Source: Amycolatopsis benzoatilytica AK 16/65
GTDB lineage: Bacteria > Actinomycetota > Actinomycetes > Mycobacteriales > Pseudonocardiaceae
Length of the DNA stretch: 64,000 bases
Assembly (NCBI RefSeq): GCF_000383915.1
Contig: NZ_KB912942.1
Location: 4,865,039 to 4,929,038 of the forward strand
Direction: 5' to 3'
In this document: positions 10,129 to 17,398 of the stretch, in pieces
Numbering within the stretch: the first letter of the stretch is position 1
Layout of the letters: every line of letters starts with the position of its first letter
The notes under the pieces: model-generated
What the model was told of the DNA's origin: nothing
Seen by the model: only the letters and a program-made list of their open reading frames with translations
Database searches by the model: none
Position numbers and translations under genes: made by a program

Positions 10129-10454
10129 GGTGCAAAGCCTCCGTCGCCCTCGGCAGCAGGATCTCCACATCTGACACCTGCCGCAACAGACTTGTCCACT
10201 GTCCCCAGTGTCCCTCTTTCGAGTGGCCATCGGTAGTCTTCACCCGATTTGCGCACACAGTTTCGGAATATACTTCCCATTCCAGGACAAATGCTCCTCG
10301 CGGATACATTAAGAACGTCGCGGAATAAACCGGGAATACCGCGCCGGCGACTGGCACGGGAGCCCCCGCCGCCCCAGTGAGGTTCCGGCCCCGCCGACCG
10401 GACCGGAGCGAGTAGTGTCACCGGGTGCCAGAAGGCCCACCGGAGGGGAACAGC

Positions 10455-11090
10455 ATGTCAGCCGAACCGGCCGGGGAGCCGCGTCCCCGCCGCGGCCGCC
10501 CGCGCGGGACCAGCGCGCGCCAGCTGGAGGAGATCGCGCTGCGCCTGTTCACCGAACAGGGTTTCCACGAGACGACCGTCGACCAGATCGCGGCCTCGGC
10601 CGGCGTCAGCCGGCGCACCTTCTTCCGTTACTACGACGCCAAGTCGGACGTGCTCTGGAACGAGTTCGACTCCGAAGTGGACACCATTCGCGAGCTGCTG
10701 GCGGACACCCCGGACGGCCTGCCGGTGCTGGAAGCCGTCCGGCGCGCGGTGCTGGCCGCCAACCACTACCGCGCCGAAGACGTGCCTGAGCTGCGGATGC
10801 GGATGAACCTGCTGAGCACCGTCGCCGAGCTGGCCGCGAGCGCGACCCGGCACTACGACGACTGGGAACGCGCGGTGATCAGCTTCGTGGCCCACCGCAC
10901 CGGCCAGCCCGAAGACTCGCTGTATCCGCTGGCGGTCGGCCGCGCGGTCCTGGCCACCTGCCGGGCGGCGTACGAACGCTGGTCCGCCCGCGCGGACGCC
11001 GACCTCACCCTCTACCTGGACGCCGGCCTGCGCGCCCTCGCCGCCGGCTTCTCCGACGAAGTCCTGACCGCCGAGCCCGAGGCGCCATGA
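10455..11090 (+). CDS. TetR family regulator resembling mycofactocin regulator MftR
   Basis: ATG at 10455 has a strong GGAGGGGAA 5 bases upstream; a GTG at 10425 lacks one. 211 residues: a basic lead (RRGRPRG), a TetR helix-turn-helix (LFTEQGFHETTVDQIAASAGVSRRTFFRYY, as two adjoining segments) and a C-terminal domain with DVLWNEFDSE, LRMRMNLL and YDDWERAVISFVAHR, a pattern I recognise from the regulator of mycofactocin loci. No mftA precursor peptide (IDGxCGVY ending) or mftB-F gene is visible here. The neighbouring NDMA-dependent alcohol dehydrogenase belongs to a mycofactocin-linked family, which supports the assignment; it rests on remembered family patterns. Confidence 0.7.
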   Translation: MSAEPAGEPRPRRGRPRGTSARQLEEIALRLFTEQGFHETTVDQIAASAGVSRRTFFRYYDAKSDVLWNEFDSEVDTIRELLADTPDGLPVLEAVRRAVLAANHYRAEDVPELRMRMNLLSTVAELAASATRHYDDWERAVISFVAHRTGQPEDSLYPLAVGRAVLATCRAAYERWSARADADLTLYLDAGLRALAAGFSDEVLTAEPEAP

Positions 11091-11099
11091 CCAAGCCGT

Positions 11100-11152
11100 T
11101 CCGTGAAGGGCCCCATGAGGGACATAGATTCCCTCAAGGGGCCCTTCACGGA
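11100..11152. repeat. Dispersed palindromic repeat, copy A
   Basis: A 23-base arm starting TCCGTGAAGGGCCCC pairs with its inverted copy ending GGGGCCCTTCACGGA (one mismatch), with loop CATAGAT. It lies between the converging TetR and VWA genes and may end both transcripts. Four other copies are at 25159, 34468, 35504 and 62939. Confidence 0.85.
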
Positions 11153-11174: not shown

Positions 11175-11957
11175 CTACCGGTGGTCGAGCAGAGCGGCGA
11201 GAGCGGCCGGCGCGGCCGCGGCGCCGCTGAGCGGATACCAGCGCGCACCGGATTCGCGTGCGAACCGTTCGGCTTCCTCGCAGTCCTCCGCCGGAGCCAG
11301 AATCAGCAATTCCTCGCACGCGCGCGCGGCCGGCAACGGATCCTGATCATCGGTCGCCCGGCAATCCGACAACAGAATGATCGTCTTCCGCGCCGCCCGC
11401 GAAGACGACAATTGCTCATTCGCTTTTCGCAACGCCGCCGCGAGCGCCGTCACGCCATGCCCCCGCAAGGACAACACCGATTCCACCACCGCGGCTTTCG
11501 ACCGCGACGACCGCAGCGGCCGGATGACCTCGGCCTGCCGCGCGAACGACACCACTGCGTGTTCCTCCGGTGCCCGCCACGCACAGGCCGCCGCCGTGAG
11601 CGCGGCGGCCGCCAGCCGGGCACCCGTCATCGACCCGCTGGTGTCGATCACCATGCACAGCGCCAGTTCCGGCCGAGCCCAGCGGCGGGCCACCAGGTCG
11701 TCCAACGCCGGCACCCCGCCGATCGCCGCGGCGTCCACCAGCGCGGGCAGCGACCGGTCCAGGTCCAGTTCCCCGCCGCGATCGGCGCGATCGCGGCGCA
11801 GTTTTCCCACGCCTCGCCCGCGCGCGACGCCTCGCCGGGCAACGTCGATCATCAACCGCCGCGCCAGCCCGCGAGCCGCGGCACGCAACGACTCGTCGGT
11901 CGCCTTGCTCATCTCGACCAGGAGCGCCATCGCCTCGTCCGCGTCGTCGCGGAACAC
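11175..11957 (-). CDS. VWA-domain protein partner of MoxR ATPase
   Basis: 260 residues from GTG at 11957. The von Willebrand A domain carries its metal-ion site as DTSGSM near residue 105, with HGVTAL and LLSDCR further on. The preceding region (EAMALLVEMSKATDESLRAAARGLARRL) is helical. The frame remains open and coding-like up to 12134 (…SRFAEISPEVGVLDEE…), but holds no ATG, GTG or TTG, so the true start may be a CTG near 12119 that overlaps the MoxR stop. MoxR/VWA pairs act as metal-centre or complex-assembly chaperones (NorQ/NorD, CbbQ/CbbO). Here they follow the alcohol dehydrogenase, a probable client (inference). Confidence 0.82.
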   Translation of the reverse strand: MFRDDADEAMALLVEMSKATDESLRAAARGLARRLMIDVARRGVARGRGVGKLRRDRADRGGELDLDRSLPALVDAAAIGGVPALDDLVARRWARPELALCMVIDTSGSMTGARLAAAALTAAACAWRAPEEHAVVSFARQAEVIRPLRSSRSKAAVVESVLSLRGHGVTALAAALRKANEQLSSSRAARKTIILLSDCRATDDQDPLPAARACEELLILAPAEDCEEAERFARESGARWYPLSGAAAAPAALAALLDHR

Positions 11958-12115
11958 CGCGCTGAACGCTTCCTCGTCGAGAACGCCGACTTCCGGCGAG
12001 ATCTCCGCGAACCGGCTGTTGCGGGACAGTTCCGAGCGCGGCGTGGTGCTGCTGCGCGCGGAACCCGGCCGCGGCGGTCGTTGCTGGTGTTGCTCAGTGC
12101 CCGCCGGCGGCGGGC

Positions 12116-13054
12116 TCAGGCTTCCCCCGGCGGTTCACCGCCTTCCGGTTCCTTCGGCGCGGATTCCTCGCCGAACACCGCCACGTACAGCTCGTCGATC
12201 ACCGATTCCGCGGTGCGCCCGCTGGATTCGTGCATCCCGATCCGGCCGGACAGCGCCGCCATCGCGGCATCGTGGCCGACCCGCCACTCCGTCGCCTCCG
12301 CACCGCGGATCCGGGCCAGCGAAACCGAAAGCCGCACCACGTCGATCGCGCCGCGCACCGAAGAACCGACGCGCACGTCCGCGTGCTCCCGGGTACGCCG
12401 GACCAGGTCCACCACGCGGTCGCGCCACGGCGCCGGCACCGGCGGGCACCGGCGCGCGACGATGTCGTTTTCCTCGTCGTGGCTCTGGTAGCCCATGACG
12501 ATCCGGCACACCCGGTCGTAGATCGCCGACGAGATCCGCGCCGTCCCCACCGCGTCGAACGGGTTCATCGCGGCCACCAGCCGGAACCCCTCGGCCGCGC
12601 GCACCCGGCCCAGCCGCGGCACGTGCAGCTCCGCTTCGGACATCACGGTGATCAGGACGTTGAGCGTCTCCTCCGGAATCCGGTTGACCTCCTCGACGTA
12701 GAGCAGCCCGCCGGTCCGCAGCGCCTCGATCAGCGGACCGTCCACAAAGGTCTCCGGGACGTAGCCTTCGGCCAGCACCCGCGACGGATCGAACTGCCCG
12801 ACCAGCCGGGCCGGCGTCAGCTCCGCGTTCCCTTCCACGAACACGAACGACGAGCCGCCCGCTTCCGCGACCGCACGCAGCAGCGTGGTCTTCCCGGTGC
12901 CGGGCGGGCCTTCGAGCACGACGTGCGCGCCGCAGTCGAGACCGGCCAGCAGCAGTTCGATCTCGCGCTGCCGGCCGACCACCTCGTCGGAGAGGAACGG
13001 TACCGCCGCCCGGGGGCCGGAAACCGGCCCCCGGGCAGCGTGCAATGCCGTCAC
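12116..13054 (-). CDS. MoxR-family AAA+ ATPase
   Basis: 312 residues. Walker A GPPGTGKTT near residue 50, Walker B LLYVEEVNR near 115, sensor 1 AAMNPF, and an arginine-finger region after ISSAIYDRV. GTG at 13054 overlaps the alcohol dehydrogenase stop as GTGA, so translation is coupled. MoxR ATPases work with VWA proteins to mature or activate enzyme complexes in the cytoplasm. Its own 3' end abuts or overlaps the open frame of the VWA gene. Context suggests activation of the nicotinoprotein alcohol dehydrogenase, but no direct evidence is in the sequence. Confidence 0.9.
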   Translation of the reverse strand: MTALHAARGPVSGPRAAVPFLSDEVVGRQREIELLLAGLDCGAHVVLEGPPGTGKTTLLRAVAEAGGSSFVFVEGNAELTPARLVGQFDPSRVLAEGYVPETFVDGPLIEALRTGGLLYVEEVNRIPEETLNVLITVMSEAELHVPRLGRVRAAEGFRLVAAMNPFDAVGTARISSAIYDRVCRIVMGYQSHDEENDIVARRCPPVPAPWRDRVVDLVRRTREHADVRVGSSVRGAIDVVRLSVSLARIRGAEATEWRVGHDAAMAALSGRIGMHESSGRTAESVIDELYVAVFGEESAPKEPEGGEPPGEA

Positions 13055-14172
13055 GGCGCGTCGTGGACCAGCACGCCGCGCACGTTCCGGCCCTCCAGCA
13101 GATCGTCGTACCCCTGGTTGATCTCTTCCAGGGTGTACGTCCGGGTGATGATTTCGTCCAGCTTCAGGTCCCCGCTCTGGTACAGCCCGAGGATCTTCGG
13201 GATGTCCGTGGTCGGGTTGCAGTCGCCGAACAAGCTGCCCTTCACGGTCTTCTTGAACAGCGTGAGGATCGAGCCGGGCAGGTTGACGTTGTTCACCGAC
13301 AGCTTGTTCAGCCCGGTCAGCACGATCGTGCCGCCCTTGCCGGTGGCGTTGAACGCGCCGGTGACGATCTCCTCGGTGACGATGCCCGCGGTGACGATGG
13401 TCTTGTCCGCTCCGTTGCCGTTGGTGAACGACTGGGCCAGCTCAGCCGCTTCCTCCGGCGTCGCGACCGCGTGCGTCGCGCCGAGCTCCATCGCCTTCTC
13501 CCGCTTGTTCTCCAACGGGTCCAGCGCGATCACGTTCTTCGCACCGGCGTACCGCGCGCCCTGCACCGCATTGATGCCGATGCCGCCGACGCCGGACACG
13601 ATCACCGTCTCGCCGGGCCGGACGTCGGCCGCGTTGACCGCCGAACCCCAGCCGGTCGGGACGCCGCAGCCGACCAGCACCGCCTTGTCCAGCGGCAGGT
13701 CGTCGTCGACCTTGACCACCGAGTTCTGGTGGATCGTGGAGTACTGGCTGAACGTGCCCAGCATGCACATCGCGCCGTATTCCTTGACCGGGCCGGGGCC
13801 GCTGAACGGGAACCGCTCGCCCGGCAGGTAGCCCTCCAGGATGGTGGCGCCCATGTCGCAGATCGCCTGCTGCCCGGTGGCGCACCAGCGGCACACGCCG
13901 CAGTTGGGGATGAACGAGCACACCACATGGTCGCCGGGCTTGACGCGGGTGACGCCGACGCCGACTTCCTCGATGATGCCCGCGCCTTCGTGGCCGAGCA
14001 CCATCGGCAGCCGGGCCTCCAGGTCGCCGTGCGCGATGTGCACGTCGGAGTGGCACAGCCCGGCATGCGTGTACCGGATCAGCACCTCGCCCTCGCCCGG
14101 GCCTTCGAGATCCAGCTCCACTACCTCGATCGGCTTGCCGATTTCGTAGACCACCGCGGCCTTAGTCTTCAT
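13051..14172 (-). CDS. NDMA-dependent (nicotinoprotein) alcohol dehydrogenase, zinc MDR family
   Basis: 373 residues; ATG preceded by AAGGAG at 6 bases. Zinc-type medium-chain dehydrogenase: catalytic-zinc region GLCHSDVH and GHEGAG, structural zinc cysteines in PNCGVCRWCATGQQAIC, Rossmann motif SGVGGIGINAVQGA and adenine-side acidic residue in ALDPLENK. The overall pattern fits the Rxyl_3153-type NDMA-dependent dehydrogenases, which hold NAD tightly and in the cell are thought to be re-oxidised through mycofactocin. It oxidises primary alcohols to aldehydes, feeding the aldehyde dehydrogenase 28 bases upstream. It overlaps the MoxR gene. Confidence 0.88.
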   Translation of the reverse strand: MKTKAAVVYEIGKPIEVVELDLEGPGEGEVLIRYTHAGLCHSDVHIAHGDLEARLPMVLGHEGAGIIEEVGVGVTRVKPGDHVVCSFIPNCGVCRWCATGQQAICDMGATILEGYLPGERFPFSGPGPVKEYGAMCMLGTFSQYSTIHQNSVVKVDDDLPLDKAVLVGCGVPTGWGSAVNAADVRPGETVIVSGVGGIGINAVQGARYAGAKNVIALDPLENKREKAMELGATHAVATPEEAAELAQSFTNGNGADKTIVTAGIVTEEIVTGAFNATGKGGTIVLTGLNKLSVNNVNLPGSILTLFKKTVKGSLFGDCNPTTDIPKILGLYQSGDLKLDEIITRTYTLEEINQGYDDLLEGRNVRGVLVHDAP

Positions 14173-14200
14173 CGGGAACTCCTTTGTTCGATTGGGCGGA

Positions 14201-15700
14201 TCACAACGCGACGTTGACGGACTTGGTCTGGGTGTAGAGGTCGAGCGCGGCGGCGCCGAGTTCCCGGCCCCAGCCGGACTGTTTGAAGCCGCCGAACGGC
14301 ATCGCGGTGTCGAAGCCGTTGTACTGGTTGACCCAGACCGAACCGGCCTTCAGTTCCTTGGCGGTCCGGTGCGCCTTCGAGATGTCCCGGGTCCAGATGC
14401 CGGCGGCGAGGCCGTACTCGCTGTCGTTGGCCGCCGCGGCCACGCCTTGTTCGGCGTTGAACGGCAAGGCCGCCACGACCGGGCCGAAGATCTCCTCGCG
14501 GACGATGCTGAATTCCGGCTGCACGTCGACGAAAACGGTCGGCTCGATGAAGTATCCGGTGTCGCCCCAGCGTTTCCCGCCGGTGAGCGCGCGGGCCCCG
14601 TCGGCGATGCCCTCGCCGAGGTAGCGAGAGACCCGCTCGAACTGTTCCTGCGAAACCATCGGGCCGAGCTGGGTCGACGGGTCGAGGCCGGGGCCGATCT
14701 TCACCTGGCTCGCGGCGTCCGCGACCGCCTGGGTGAATTCCTCGAAGATGGTGTCCTCTACGTACAGCCGGGTGCCGGCGACGCAGCACTGGCCGTGGTT
14801 GAACATCCACGCGTTGACCGAACCGGGCACCGCGAGGTCGAAGTCGGCGTCCGCGAACACCACGTTCGGGCTCTTGCCGCCCAGTTCGAGGGAGACCTTC
14901 TTGAGGTTGCCGCTGGCCGCCTGGACGATCTTCTTGCCGACCTCGGTCGAGCCGGTGAAGGCGACCTTGTCGACGCCGTCGTGCGCGGCGAGCGCGGCGC
15001 CGGCGTCGCCGAACCCGGTGACGACGTTGACCACCCCGGGCGGGAACCCGGCTTCCTCGAACAGCTTGCCCAGCAGCAGCGCGGTCAGCGGCGTCTGCTC
15101 GGCGGGCTTGAGCACCACGGTGTTGCCCGCGGCGAGCGCCGGCGCGATCTTCCAGGCGGCCATCAGCAGCGGGAAGTTCCACGGGATGATCTGGGCGCAC
15201 ACGCCGACCGGCTCGCGCAGGGTGTAGGCGTGGAACTGGGCGTCCGGTGCGAACGGCATCGACACGTTCACCGTGCTGCCTTCGATCTTGGTCGCCCAGC
15301 CGGCGTAGTAGCGGAACACGTCGGCCGCCCAGCCGGTGTCCACCGCGGTGGCGATCGCCGCGGACTTGCCGTTGTCGAGGGCTTCGAGCTGCCCGAAGAT
15401 CTCCGCCCGCTCGGACAGCAGGTCGCCGATGCGCCAGATCAGCCGTTCCCGCTGGTTCGGCTTCATCGCCGGCCACGGGCCTTCGTCGAACGCCTTGCGC
15501 GCGGCCGCCACCGCCCGGTTGACGTCCTCCGCTTCGGCGTGCGCGACCTCGGCGATCTTCTCGCCGGTGGCCGGGTCGTAGGTCGGGAACGTGCGGCCGG
15601 ACGCGGCCGGCACCCACTGTCCGCCGATGAGCAGTTCGAGCGGCCCGGACACGAACTCCCGGACCCCGGTGTGCAGGGGGTACTCAACCGTTGCGGTCAC
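14201..15700 (-). CDS. Aldehyde dehydrogenase (NAD-dependent)
   Basis: GTG at 15700 is chosen for its GGAGG 7 bases upstream; five more in-frame codons upstream are not needed. 499 residues with the standard ALDH marks: PWNFPLLMAAWK, FTGSTEVGKKI, the general base in LELGGKSPN, the catalytic cysteine in NHGQCCVAGTRL (the second or first Cys) and the C-terminal MPFGGFKQSGWGRELG. It oxidises aldehydes to carboxylic acids. It heads the ald-adh-moxR-vwa operon and would take the product of the adjoining alcohol dehydrogenase. Confidence 0.95.
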   Translation of the reverse strand: MTATVEYPLHTGVREFVSGPLELLIGGQWVPAASGRTFPTYDPATGEKIAEVAHAEAEDVNRAVAAARKAFDEGPWPAMKPNQRERLIWRIGDLLSERAEIFGQLEALDNGKSAAIATAVDTGWAADVFRYYAGWATKIEGSTVNVSMPFAPDAQFHAYTLREPVGVCAQIIPWNFPLLMAAWKIAPALAAGNTVVLKPAEQTPLTALLLGKLFEEAGFPPGVVNVVTGFGDAGAALAAHDGVDKVAFTGSTEVGKKIVQAASGNLKKVSLELGGKSPNVVFADADFDLAVPGSVNAWMFNHGQCCVAGTRLYVEDTIFEEFTQAVADAASQVKIGPGLDPSTQLGPMVSQEQFERVSRYLGEGIADGARALTGGKRWGDTGYFIEPTVFVDVQPEFSIVREEIFGPVVAALPFNAEQGVAAAANDSEYGLAAGIWTRDISKAHRTAKELKAGSVWVNQYNGFDTAMPFGGFKQSGWGRELGAAALDLYTQTKSVNVAL

Positions 15701-15763
15701 CTGGCGCCTCCTCACTTCGTTGTGACGGAGGTCATCGTCACCCGGCGGACCGGGCGCGAAGTG

Positions 15764-17398
15764 TTACAGAAGTGGACAGTCCTCGGTGATGCCCAGCGCC
15801 TGCATGCGGCGGTAGAGCGTGGTGCGGCTGATGCCCAGCTCGCGCGCGGCGCGCAGCTTGTTGCCTTCGCTGGCGCGCAACGCCGTGACGATCGCGTTCC
15901 GTTCGGCGAGCTCGCGGCCGCCGAGCTGCCGGGTCCTCGAGCTGCCGCGGCAAGCCGGCGGCAGCTGAGCGAGGTCGATCACCCCCGTGTACGGAAGACG
16001 GGAGACTTCGCGCATCGCGGCGCGGAGTTCGTGCAGGTTGCCGGACCACGGGTGGGTGCGCAACGCGGCCAGTGCGGTGCCGGTGAACCGTGGTTTCCGG
16101 TCCGGGTGCTCGTCGCGGAGCATCGCTTCGGCGATGGCGGGCAGCTCGTCCAGCCGCTCGCGCAGCGGCGCGAGCGAGACGGTCTGGACGCACCTCGTCG
16201 CCACCGCCGCGACGGCGGGCGGCATGGCCTTCGGCGGGACGCTGGTGAGCAGCAGTGCCTTGCCGTCGTCGAGTGCTTCGCCGACCAGCGGCAGCAGGCT
16301 CTCCGGGAGCAGGTGGACGTCGTCCAGGATGACCGTGGTCCCCGGCTGGCCGACCAGGTCTGCGAAGCGGGCGGCCCAGGCGCGCGGTTCCTCCCGCAAC
16401 GCGGCGGCCGCATGCAGCACGACCGGGTCGTCCACGCCGGCCCGGGTGCGCGCTTCGGTGGTGCGGCCGGTGCCGGGCTCGCCCGTGACGAGGACGGAGC
16501 GGGCGGTTTTCGCCGCCGCCGGCGCATACTTCCGCCGCTCGGTTTTCGAGATCCGGAATACCGCGCCGTCGGTTGACCCCGCGACGCGTTCGGCGGCCAC
16601 CGAGAGAGTGATGCCGTCCCCCACCTCGAGGCAGGTGTCGAACACTCCGCGTTCCGGCACTTGCGGAAGCAGGGTGCGCAGCAGCGTCGGATCGGCGGGC
16701 CGGAGCTGGTCGATACAGGTTTCGTTGGCGAAGACGAGGTCGCCGCCGAGCACCGCGACCGGCACGCTGCGGTGATGCGTGGCCTGCTGGAAAGCGAGGA
16801 ACAGCCGGCGTTCGCTGGCGCGCGCGGTTTCCAGGATGACCTGCTCGATGTCGCCGACCACGCGTTTCACCAGCGGCCCGAAAAGCGGGTTGCCGCTGGT
16901 GCTTTCACCGGTGATGTCGAGGACGCCTTCGATGCGCCCGGTCAGCGGATGCCGGATCGGATGGCCGTAGCAGCTGAACCGCTTCAACGCGTCGGCGTAG
17001 TGCTCCTGGCCGTGGATCTCGACGGCCTGCCGGGACTCGTGCGGCGTGCCCAGCGCGTTCGTGCCGACCCGGCCCTCGCTGAGCTGGGAGCCGTGCAGGA
17101 CGCCGATCTCTTCGAGCTGGTGCTGCAGGCCGCGGTCGCCGAACCAGCGGAACACCAGGCGGCAGTCCTTGTCGGTGAGGAGGATGGAGAATTTCGTGCC
17201 GGCGAGCTGCTCGGCCAGCTGGTCGAGGACCGGCCGGGCGGCCTTCATCAGCCTGCTGGCCGGGTCGACGTCGGCGATCGAGATCGCCGAGGCGTTCAGC
17301 CCTGGTTCCACCCCGAACAGGCGAGACCGGCGCCAGGAGTCAGCGATGGGCGGGCGCAGCACAGCACCCCCCTGCGGCGGAATCCCTCCGAGCGACAC
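15764..17398 (-). CDS. GAF–degenerate AAA+–Fis transcriptional activator (AcoR/MimR-like)
   Basis: 544 residues: an N-terminal GAF-type sensor (ADSWRRSRLFGVEPG, then ILLTDKDCRLVFRWFGD and EGRVGTNALGT), a central AAA+-like part with Walker A GEPGTGRTT and Walker B VILDDVHLL, and a C-terminal Fis-type helix-turn-helix (ASEGNKLRAARELGISRTTLYRRM). Between the Walker motifs there is no GAFTGA loop, so contact with sigma-54 is not expected. Such proteins activate alcohol, ketone or aromatic catabolism genes in actinomycetes. It lies 63 bases upstream of the aldehyde dehydrogenase on the same strand and is its probable regulator. Start GTG follows GGGAGGAG; a GTG 12 codons later is possible. Confidence 0.85.
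   Translation of the reverse strand: MSLGGIPPQGGAVLRPPIADSWRRSRLFGVEPGLNASAISIADVDPASRLMKAARPVLDQLAEQLAGTKFSILLTDKDCRLVFRWFGDRGLQHQLEEIGVLHGSQLSEGRVGTNALGTPHESRQAVEIHGQEHYADALKRFSCYGHPIRHPLTGRIEGVLDITGESTSGNPLFGPLVKRVVGDIEQVILETARASERRLFLAFQQATHHRSVPVAVLGGDLVFANETCIDQLRPADPTLLRTLLPQVPERGVFDTCLEVGDGITLSVAAERVAGSTDGAVFRISKTERRKYAPAAAKTARSVLVTGEPGTGRTTEARTRAGVDDPVVLHAAAALREEPRAWAARFADLVGQPGTTVILDDVHLLPESLLPLVGEALDDGKALLLTSVPPKAMPPAVAAVATRCVQTVSLAPLRERLDELPAIAEAMLRDEHPDRKPRFTGTALAALRTHPWSGNLHELRAAMREVSRLPYTGVIDLAQLPPACRGSSRTRQLGGRELAERNAIVTALRASEGNKLRAARELGISRTTLYRRMQALGITEDCPLL

Follow-up and report, generated by a model that had tools for sequence, protein, structure and literature searches.

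What does a MoxR-type AAA+ ATPase do when its gene lies directly behind that of an alcohol dehydrogenase (ADH) of the N,N-dimethyl-4-nitrosoaniline (NDMA)-dependent, mycofactocin-associated type? The question is raised by a locus of Amycolatopsis benzoatilytica AK 16/65, found in a stretch of 64,000 nt (positions 4865039-4929038 of contig NZ_KB912942.1, hereafter the window) of a host genome of 8.70 Mb in one contig. On its minus strand, genes for a Fis-type regulator, an aldehyde dehydrogenase (ALDH), the ADH, MoxR and a VWA-domain protein follow one another, and a gene for an MftR regulator is convergent with them past VWA (Table 1). A first-pass annotation had described an alcohol oxidation island in which a moxR/VWA machine is tied to a mycofactocin-dependent dehydrogenase, a reading that our analyses partly support. 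They suggest that moxR-vwa belongs to the mycofactocin system of actinobacteria as an accessory component not described so far. Comparison of loci shows a genetic tie between this pair and mycofactocin nicotinoproteins of two unrelated superfamilies, the Zn-type ADHs (TIGR03989) and the short-chain dehydrogenases/reductases (SDRs; TIGR03971/TIGR04504), and it strongly indicates that in most lineages one gene is read in two ways, to yield a short MoxR and a long MoxR-VWA fusion.

We collected homologous loci from two sources (L and G numbers denote loci and genomes, respectively). A search of named genomes yielded at least 80 loci, and 51 of the matches listed belong to this MoxR subfamily (≥50% identity); we left out 29 of the 80 listed loci, which at ≤35% identity represent another subfamily. 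We also searched a sample of 396 Actinomycetota genomes with a MoxR profile at an E-value of 1e-60 and, separately, for mftC. After three low scorers (G061, G072 and G337; 265-307 bits) had been dropped, this sample provided 34 genes in 29 genomes, or 32 moxR units, two tandem pairs each being counted once and the window representing one unit.

In the genome sample, the gene directly upstream of moxR on the same strand codes for an ADH in 26 of the 32 units and for a mycofactocin SDR in six, and vwa is found downstream of moxR in all 32. All 26 adjoining ADHs exceed the TIGR03989 cut-off; all five SDR units scanned exceed that of TIGR03971 or TIGR04504, and in the sixth, L184, the range of the SDR contains a stop. 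Among the listed named loci, a related ADH occupies this position in 38 of 51 cases and a mycofactocin SDR in three. An NCBIfam scan of six of these 38 ADHs placed every one over the TIGR03989 cut-off, and the three SDRs likewise passed that of TIGR03971 or TIGR04504. The predicted conservation of moxR-vwa beside the ADH was thus borne out in both collections, with a mycofactocin SDR often present where the ADH is missing. Adjacency is kept among ADHs ranging from 98% to approximately 45% identity.

The partner of moxR also varies within genomes and over the phylogeny. In three genomes (G355, G266 and G082), one moxR copy is preceded by an ADH and a further copy by SDRs, and in three others (G040, G070 and G127) the genes for SDR, mftC, ADH, moxR, vwa, mftE and mftF are found on one strand over approximately 9 kb, with gaps. 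Among 72,556 plasmid records searched, two matched, both from Rhodococcus, with the pair beside SDRs named as mycofactocin-coupled by PGAP; the SDR and moxR genes overlap by 4 nt on the R. qingshengii plasmid, and the SDR genes are on the opposite strand on that of R. ruber. A MoxR tree of 92 rows, in which some 'no partner' rows may have undetected partners, requires a minimum of 14 changes of neighbour type and does not group all SDR-linked copies together: those linked to SDR2 form one supported clade, and for those linked to SDR1 the well-supported branches imply three changes or more. One SDR-linked locus, L095, belongs to Pseudonocardiaceae. In a genome of the window's genus (G001), a locus (L194, 5908-6632) matched only as fragments of ADH, MoxR and VWA right beside the mft cluster, and it looks like a decayed copy.

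Co-occurrence points in the same direction as gene order. In the 396 genomes, mftC was found in 53 and MoxR profile matches in 32, with both in 27. Thus, mftC is present in 27 of the 29 moxR-positive genomes (Fisher 7e-25), or in 27 of 32 when the low scorers are counted (Fisher 3e-22), both statistics ignoring kinship. The two remaining genomes without mftC, G382 and G202, are 87% and 89% complete. The three low scorers, which correspond to L187, L188 and L189, have no mycofactocin enzyme directly upstream of moxR; these loci, from mftC-negative genomes and without an adjoining mycofactocin enzyme, are the closest MoxR-VWA relatives outside the subfamily (263-307 bits). Of the 30 genomes of the window's own genus, ten possess mftC, and moxR is present in six of these (five intact copies and the fragment of G001) and in none of the 20 mftC-negative ones. 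Orthologues of the window ADH at 98% identity occur only in the five genus genomes with intact moxR, its own genome (100%) included. The search for mycofactocin genes proposed in the first-pass annotation found mftA near 1.40 Mb of the host genome and mftC beside it, approximately 3.5 Mb from the window locus. Of note, the host mftC and mftE are separated by only about 160 bp (L195, 7948-9808), which leaves no room for mftD between them. From these data, the link of moxR-vwa to mycofactocin is near certain.

Several observations nevertheless weigh against an obligate partnership. A directly adjoining mycofactocin enzyme is absent from nine of the 51 listed loci (L068, L070, L073, L074, L077, L082, L083, L084 and L093), with an ADH 2 kb upstream in L073, ordinary-looking SDRs in L070 and L082 and nothing recognised directly upstream in L074, L077, L083 and L093; a further locus, L049, is cut at the edge. 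Seen from the ADH side, 26 of the 43 over-cut-off ADHs of the 29 genomes lie directly upstream of moxR and 17 do not (3 tandem neighbours and 14 elsewhere). Four genomes of the genus (G003, G005, G020 and G021) have ADH relatives at 48-63% identity and no such moxR. Finally, 26 of the 53 mftC-positive genomes lack moxR, including all 14 mftC-positive genomes of one family of the same order (f2), and mycofactocin enzymes therefore do not generally need moxR, which makes it an accessory component: it co-occurs with mftC, and it is not present wherever mycofactocin is made. In G020, the ADH relative at 48% identity is found in a genome without an mftC match.

The machine might serve the biosynthesis or handling of mycofactocin, i.e., MftC, MftE, MftF or the cofactor itself, rather than the dehydrogenases. 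Consistent with this idea, mftE and mftF directly follow moxR-vwa in L057, L072, L162 and L170 (L072 and L170 being nearly the same sequence), the pair lies between mftE upstream and mftF downstream in L068 and precedes mftF in L084, and in many genomes mftC is within a few kb of it. However, the pair is far from mftC and still beside a dehydrogenase in the window genome, G060, G276 and G082; on the plasmid stretches, SDRs are present and mft biosynthesis genes are absent from the annotation; and the genomes with two copies keep separate ADH-linked and SDR-linked ones. We therefore regard a biosynthetic role as unlikely, and from gene order we infer that the dehydrogenase is the client of MoxR/VWA.

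We also analysed how vwa is encoded. The first-pass annotation had considered moxR and vwa as a gene pair, and both domains are indeed present, but vwa is mostly not an ordinary separate gene; its -1 frame, or its fusion to moxR, had been missed. In the window, the VWA frame, which is -1 relative to moxR, stays open over the moxR stop codon, and no ATG, GTG or TTG codon occurs in it from the TGA at 12137-12135 to the codon at 11957, which is already past the conserved N-terminal block. We extended the analysis of this junction to 93 rows plus the window, excluding fragments shorter than 600 nt (three in VWA regions, and L194). Among these 94 rows, which are not independent (L072 and L170, for instance) and for which P-values ignore kinship, 67 have VWA in the -1 frame, open past the moxR stop, and 18 have it fused in frame to moxR (including L188, outside the subfamily); it is +1 in two, separate in two (the plasmids) and not found in five. 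The +1 rows, L078 and L183, may reflect a sequencing error or a different arrangement. Removal of L187 and L189 left 65 rows of the subfamily with a -1 junction.

In 50 of these 65 rows, the last 60 nt of moxR contain an in-phase canonical -1 slippage heptamer, GGGAAAA in 47 cases, TTTTTTC in two (L093 and L095, both of Pseudonocardiaceae, with TTTTTTC in place of GGGAAAA) and CCCAAAA in one. Such heptamers occupy 50 of 1300 codon positions at the moxR end versus 8 of 18018 in gene bodies (odds ratio of approximately 90-fold), and all 50 are inside the stretch in which the -1 frame is open. All 47 occurrences of GGGAAAA in this stretch are in phase. Nine more rows, including the window and its genus, harbour an in-phase GGGGGAA, a sequence found at 2 of 18018 positions in gene bodies. 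Since the -1 frame of the window has a TGA at 12137-12135, any -1 slip there must fall in the last 16 nt ahead of the moxR stop. Of the 59 loci with a slip site, 47 show a stem (≥5 bp) whose start is 4-7 nt further on (exactly 6 nt in 33), versus 16% of dinucleotide shuffles and 22% of gene bodies, and these stems show 14 different pairings. Hairpin z-scores are modest (mean of -1.2, with 34 of 59 below -1), and stem position and length are better evidence than these scores alone. Of the 59 slip-site loci, 19 lack any ATG, GTG or TTG in the VWA frame ahead of the conserved block.

The phase and gene-body controls rule out a chance origin of the heptamers. A demand for Gly-Lys at the protein level was also considered as their cause and rejected on codon usage: AAA and AAG lysine codons are in a ratio of 50:4 in the last 60 nt versus 29:99 in gene bodies, and this excess of AAA at the moxR end means that such a demand cannot explain the codons. 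In gene bodies, GGA represents 188 of 1598 glycine codons.

In-frame fusions provide a mirror image of this arrangement. Six of the 18 (L071, L074, L077, L080, L081 and L088) carry an in-phase GGGAAAA in the linker, and a -1 slip there reaches a stop 3-15 nt after the heptamer, so that a short MoxR is predicted. One of these six has a stem in the same stem window; longer stems are seen by eye slightly further on in L077, L080 and L088. In addition, L178 (of G266) and L179 (of G082) comprise a moxR without VWA, of 330 and 304 codons, respectively, directly before a fused gene of 738 and 664 codons. There thus appear to be three ways in which a short AAA+ protein and a long AAA+-VWA protein are maintained, namely frameshift, mirror fusion, and tandem short and fused genes. 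Outside the subfamily, nine consecutive A are found at the end of moxR in L187, which has VWA in the -1 frame, and L188 is fused; the making of two products may predate the link to mycofactocin.

Altogether, a programmed -1 frameshift that yields AAA+ and AAA+-VWA products is, from these signals, very probable for the family. A slip at the GGGGGAA variant of the window itself is somewhat less likely than the family-wide event, GGGGGAA being of a near type rather than a canonical X XXY YYZ heptamer; eight other rows share it. Other features also count against frameshifting as the general solution: no recognisable slip site was found in six of the 65 -1 loci (L053, L063, L079, L084, L090 and L184), some ATG, GTG or TTG codon is present in the VWA frame in 40 of the 59 slip-site loci, both Rhodococcus plasmids have separately annotated moxR and vwa, and 12 of the 18 fusions have no GGGAAAA-type site, which indicates that the short form is not universal.

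The start codons and the plasmid annotations would fit a model in which VWA is a separate protein produced without frameshift, by translational coupling at a CTG that overlaps the moxR stop in the window (CTGA, 12119) or at a downstream GTG or ATG. As a conserved signal for the start of vwa, this CTG was rejected, since the relative L190 has CTA in its place. Coupling also leaves aside the roughly 90-fold in-phase enrichment of heptamers and the lack of any out-of-phase GGGAAAA, the prevalence of frame -1 (67 rows) over frame +1 (two rows), the 18 in-frame fusions and the mirror fusions that place a -1 stop just past the same heptamer. We consider this model rather improbable.

The two predicted products have the sequence features of an AAA+/VWA pair. 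MoxR matches PF07728 and PF07726 (AAA_5/AAA_3) over cut-off, and its GPPGTGK motif, E121-E122, N164 and R234 are invariant in 22 aligned sequences; we take them to be the Walker A motif, the acidic Walker B pair, the sensor asparagine and the arginine. In the Walker B region, LLYVEE, glutamate takes the place of the usual aspartate, and both glutamates are invariant in the aligned family members. The DxSxS motif of the metal ion-dependent adhesion site (MIDAS) is found in all 87 VWAs long enough to be counted (>150 aa, of 94 hits), with invariant T and D columns. An AlphaFold model of MoxR (mean pLDDT of 88) has NorQ (in NorQD complexes) and CbbQ as its nearest solved structures in a Foldseek search, at 19-26% identity; a profile search of PDB sequences placed NorQ, CbbQ and CobS behind midasin. 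MoxR could be assigned to none of the named subfamilies CbbQO, NorQD, GvpN and MadB: its best NCBIfam matches, to GvpN (74.9 of 266.8 bits) and MadB (62.6 of 475 bits), fall far short of the cut-offs.

The closest known systems are thus CbbQO and NorQD, with which moxR-vwa shares the MoxR AAA+ fold, a VWA with a MIDAS and a gene beside its enzyme. It differs from them by its low sequence identity, by a VWA mostly in the -1 frame or fused, and by its mycofactocin nicotinoprotein partners. CbbQO is reported to have six CbbQ per CbbO, with one VWA protein per hexamer suggested as a general feature (PMC4660213), and one NorD per NorQ hexamer is reported for NorQD (PMC9976466). Short and long products of one gene through a -1 frameshift are also described for the magnesium chelatase gene fs-chlD, which gives small and medium chelatase subunits and has fused homologues in other species (PMC3711429, PMC9227772); this gene belongs to another AAA+ subfamily, in a context of porphyrin/corrin metal insertion. 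In dnaX of bacteria, frameshifting produces the shorter or the longer product depending on the lineage (PMC3711429, PMC4066793). The mirror fusions resemble E. coli dnaX in polarity, although dnaX is functionally unrelated. Lastly, moxR-vwa shares its context and its co-occurrence with mftC with the mycofactocin system (mftA-G, TIGR03971 SDR, TIGR03989 ADH). MftG is reported as an accessory protein almost confined to mftC-positive genomes (PMC11778925); MftG is a GMC oxidoreductase that re-oxidises mycofactocin and, unlike moxR-vwa, is no ATPase.

By analogy with CbbQO and NorQD, we propose that the AAA+ subunits form a hexamer, as CbbQ and NorQ do, in which one or a few subunits carry VWA. 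The VWA/MIDAS domain would dock on the dehydrogenase, and ATP hydrolysis would remodel the latter; the outcome may be the loading or resetting of its tightly bound NAD(H), or release from a dead-end inhibited state. How often the ribosome slips would fix the proportion of short and VWA-bearing subunits, and a slip of about 1 in 6 would match one VWA per hexamer, from a single gene. We presume, from its family name, that the NAD of the ADH is non-exchanging; for TIGR03971 SDRs, a non-exchanging, buried NAD is described in PMC5264612. An activase or cofactor-loading role, with a CbbQO/NorQD-like ring remodelling nicotinoproteins, appears fairly probable. The complete proposal, i.e., a nicotinoprotein activase for two unrelated folds whose VWA subunits are metered by a -1 frameshift (or by a fusion plus a short gene), with a slip of about 1 in 6 fixing the ring composition, is more tentative.

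The same analogy may suggest a metal-insertion chaperone, which here would deliver zinc to the ADH. NorQD inserts iron, and CoxDE serves the CO dehydrogenase cluster; the ADH is of the Zn type, the nearest folds include NorQ, and VWA is CoxE-like. However, the same pair is found at mycofactocin SDR loci in several lineages, and SDRs are generally devoid of catalytic zinc. What ADH and SDR partners share is the mycofactocin link and a trapped NAD. Since the machine accompanies enzymes of both kinds, a task linked to mycofactocin and non-exchanging NAD is likelier than metal insertion, which we think quite doubtful. Mere genomic hitch-hiking of the pair with mycofactocin genes, without action on them, would profit from cluster linkage, which inflates co-occurrence, and from statistics that ignore kinship, but it is very unlikely given the two partner types, the plasmid copies, the loci far from mftC and the adjacency kept down to approximately 45% ADH identity.

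The assertion in the first-pass annotation that no chaperone had been linked to a mycofactocin-dependent enzyme agrees with our literature searches. In open-access articles, supplements aside, no link of MoxR, AAA or VWA with mycofactocin or NDMA/nicotinoproteins was found among the matches listed. Term searches detected neither 'MoxR' nor 'AAA' in the main texts of PMC3023750, PMC5264612 and PMC11778925, and the main text of PMC3711429 contains no mention of MoxR. MoxR and mycofactocin are named in unrelated table rows in PMC8191103, and in the passages retrieved, co-mentions of MoxR with frameshifting are incidental.

Among the loci listed, the nearest named relative of the window locus is that of Amycolatopsis jejuensis (L047; ADH 98% and MoxR 89% identity). 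The tight same-strand order and the GTGA overlap of adh and moxR (13054-13051) noted at first are present, and the overlap is identical in five Amycolatopsis relatives. The identity of the ADH was confirmed by an NCBIfam scan (520.4 bits for a curated cut-off of 440). The predicted -1 fusion of the window has 626 residues. In the Fis-type regulator, domain and motif scans detected a Fis helix-turn-helix (HTH) and an AAA lid, but neither a match to the Pfam sigma-54 interaction domain nor a GAFTGA-like motif, in agreement with its description as a sigma-54-independent activator. The MftR-like regulator was correctly identified (257.2 bits against TIGR03968, cut-off 224.9) and is the only over-cut-off MftR of the whole genome, but it had been placed within 11175..17398, outside which its gene lies.

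Table 1. Coordinates of the features of the A. benzoatilytica locus (window numbering).
Feature	Position	Strand	Remarks
AcoR/DhaR-like regulator, Fis HTH	15764..17398	-	Accessory, outside the conserved unit
Aldehyde dehydrogenase (ALDH)	14201..15715	-	Start more likely at 15700, because AGGAGG precedes it
NDMA-dependent (mycofactocin-type) ADH	13051..14172	-	TIGR03989
MoxR-type AAA+ ATPase, 0-frame product of 312 aa	12116..13054	-	GTG start overlaps the adh stop (GTGA)
TGA of the -1 frame	12135..12137	-	Just upstream of the slip site
Putative -1 slip site, GGGGGAA (G GGG GAA in the 0 frame)	12122..12128	-	Variant of the GGGAAAA of most relatives
moxR stop	12116..12118	-	
Hairpin GCCCGCC-GCC-GGCGGGC, 7 bp	12099..12115	-	6 nt past the slip site, directly beyond the moxR stop
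VWA (CoxE-like) coding frame	11175..12134	-	-1 relative to moxR; intact MIDAS
Inverted repeat of 23 bp	11100..11152	.	Between convergent vwa and mftR
MftR, TetR-type	10425..11090	+	TIGR03968

The 'island' did not hold as a unit, with ALDH, the Fis-type regulator and MftR outside the conserved part. Among the listed loci, some of which outside Amycolatopsis are short contigs, a same-strand ALDH gene directly upstream of that of the ADH was found only in Amycolatopsis, which led us to discard the island as a functional unit. The Fis-type regulator has a close match only in L047 and weak ones in L051, L061 and L075; MftR is close in Amycolatopsis loci and at 38-41% identity in L085, L087 and L091. 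The palindrome GTGAAGGGCCCC...GGGGCCCTTCAC at 11100-11152 belongs to a dispersed repeat family, whose members perhaps act as terminators: a pattern search of the genome found it at 111 places, and many of the copies among the matches listed vary on both arms in matching fashion.

For the biology of mycofactocin, moxR-vwa represents a specific, knock-out-ready candidate, available in actinobacteria that are not pathogens, for the loading, upkeep and mycofactocin coupling of buried-NAD dehydrogenases, and it could explain why the mycofactocin ADHs of these species may be hard to obtain in active form in a foreign host. If the frameshift is true, ring and adaptor come from one gene; this would be a natural experiment on the stoichiometry of AAA+ and VWA, and such moxR/vwa pairs are likely misannotated as two genes.

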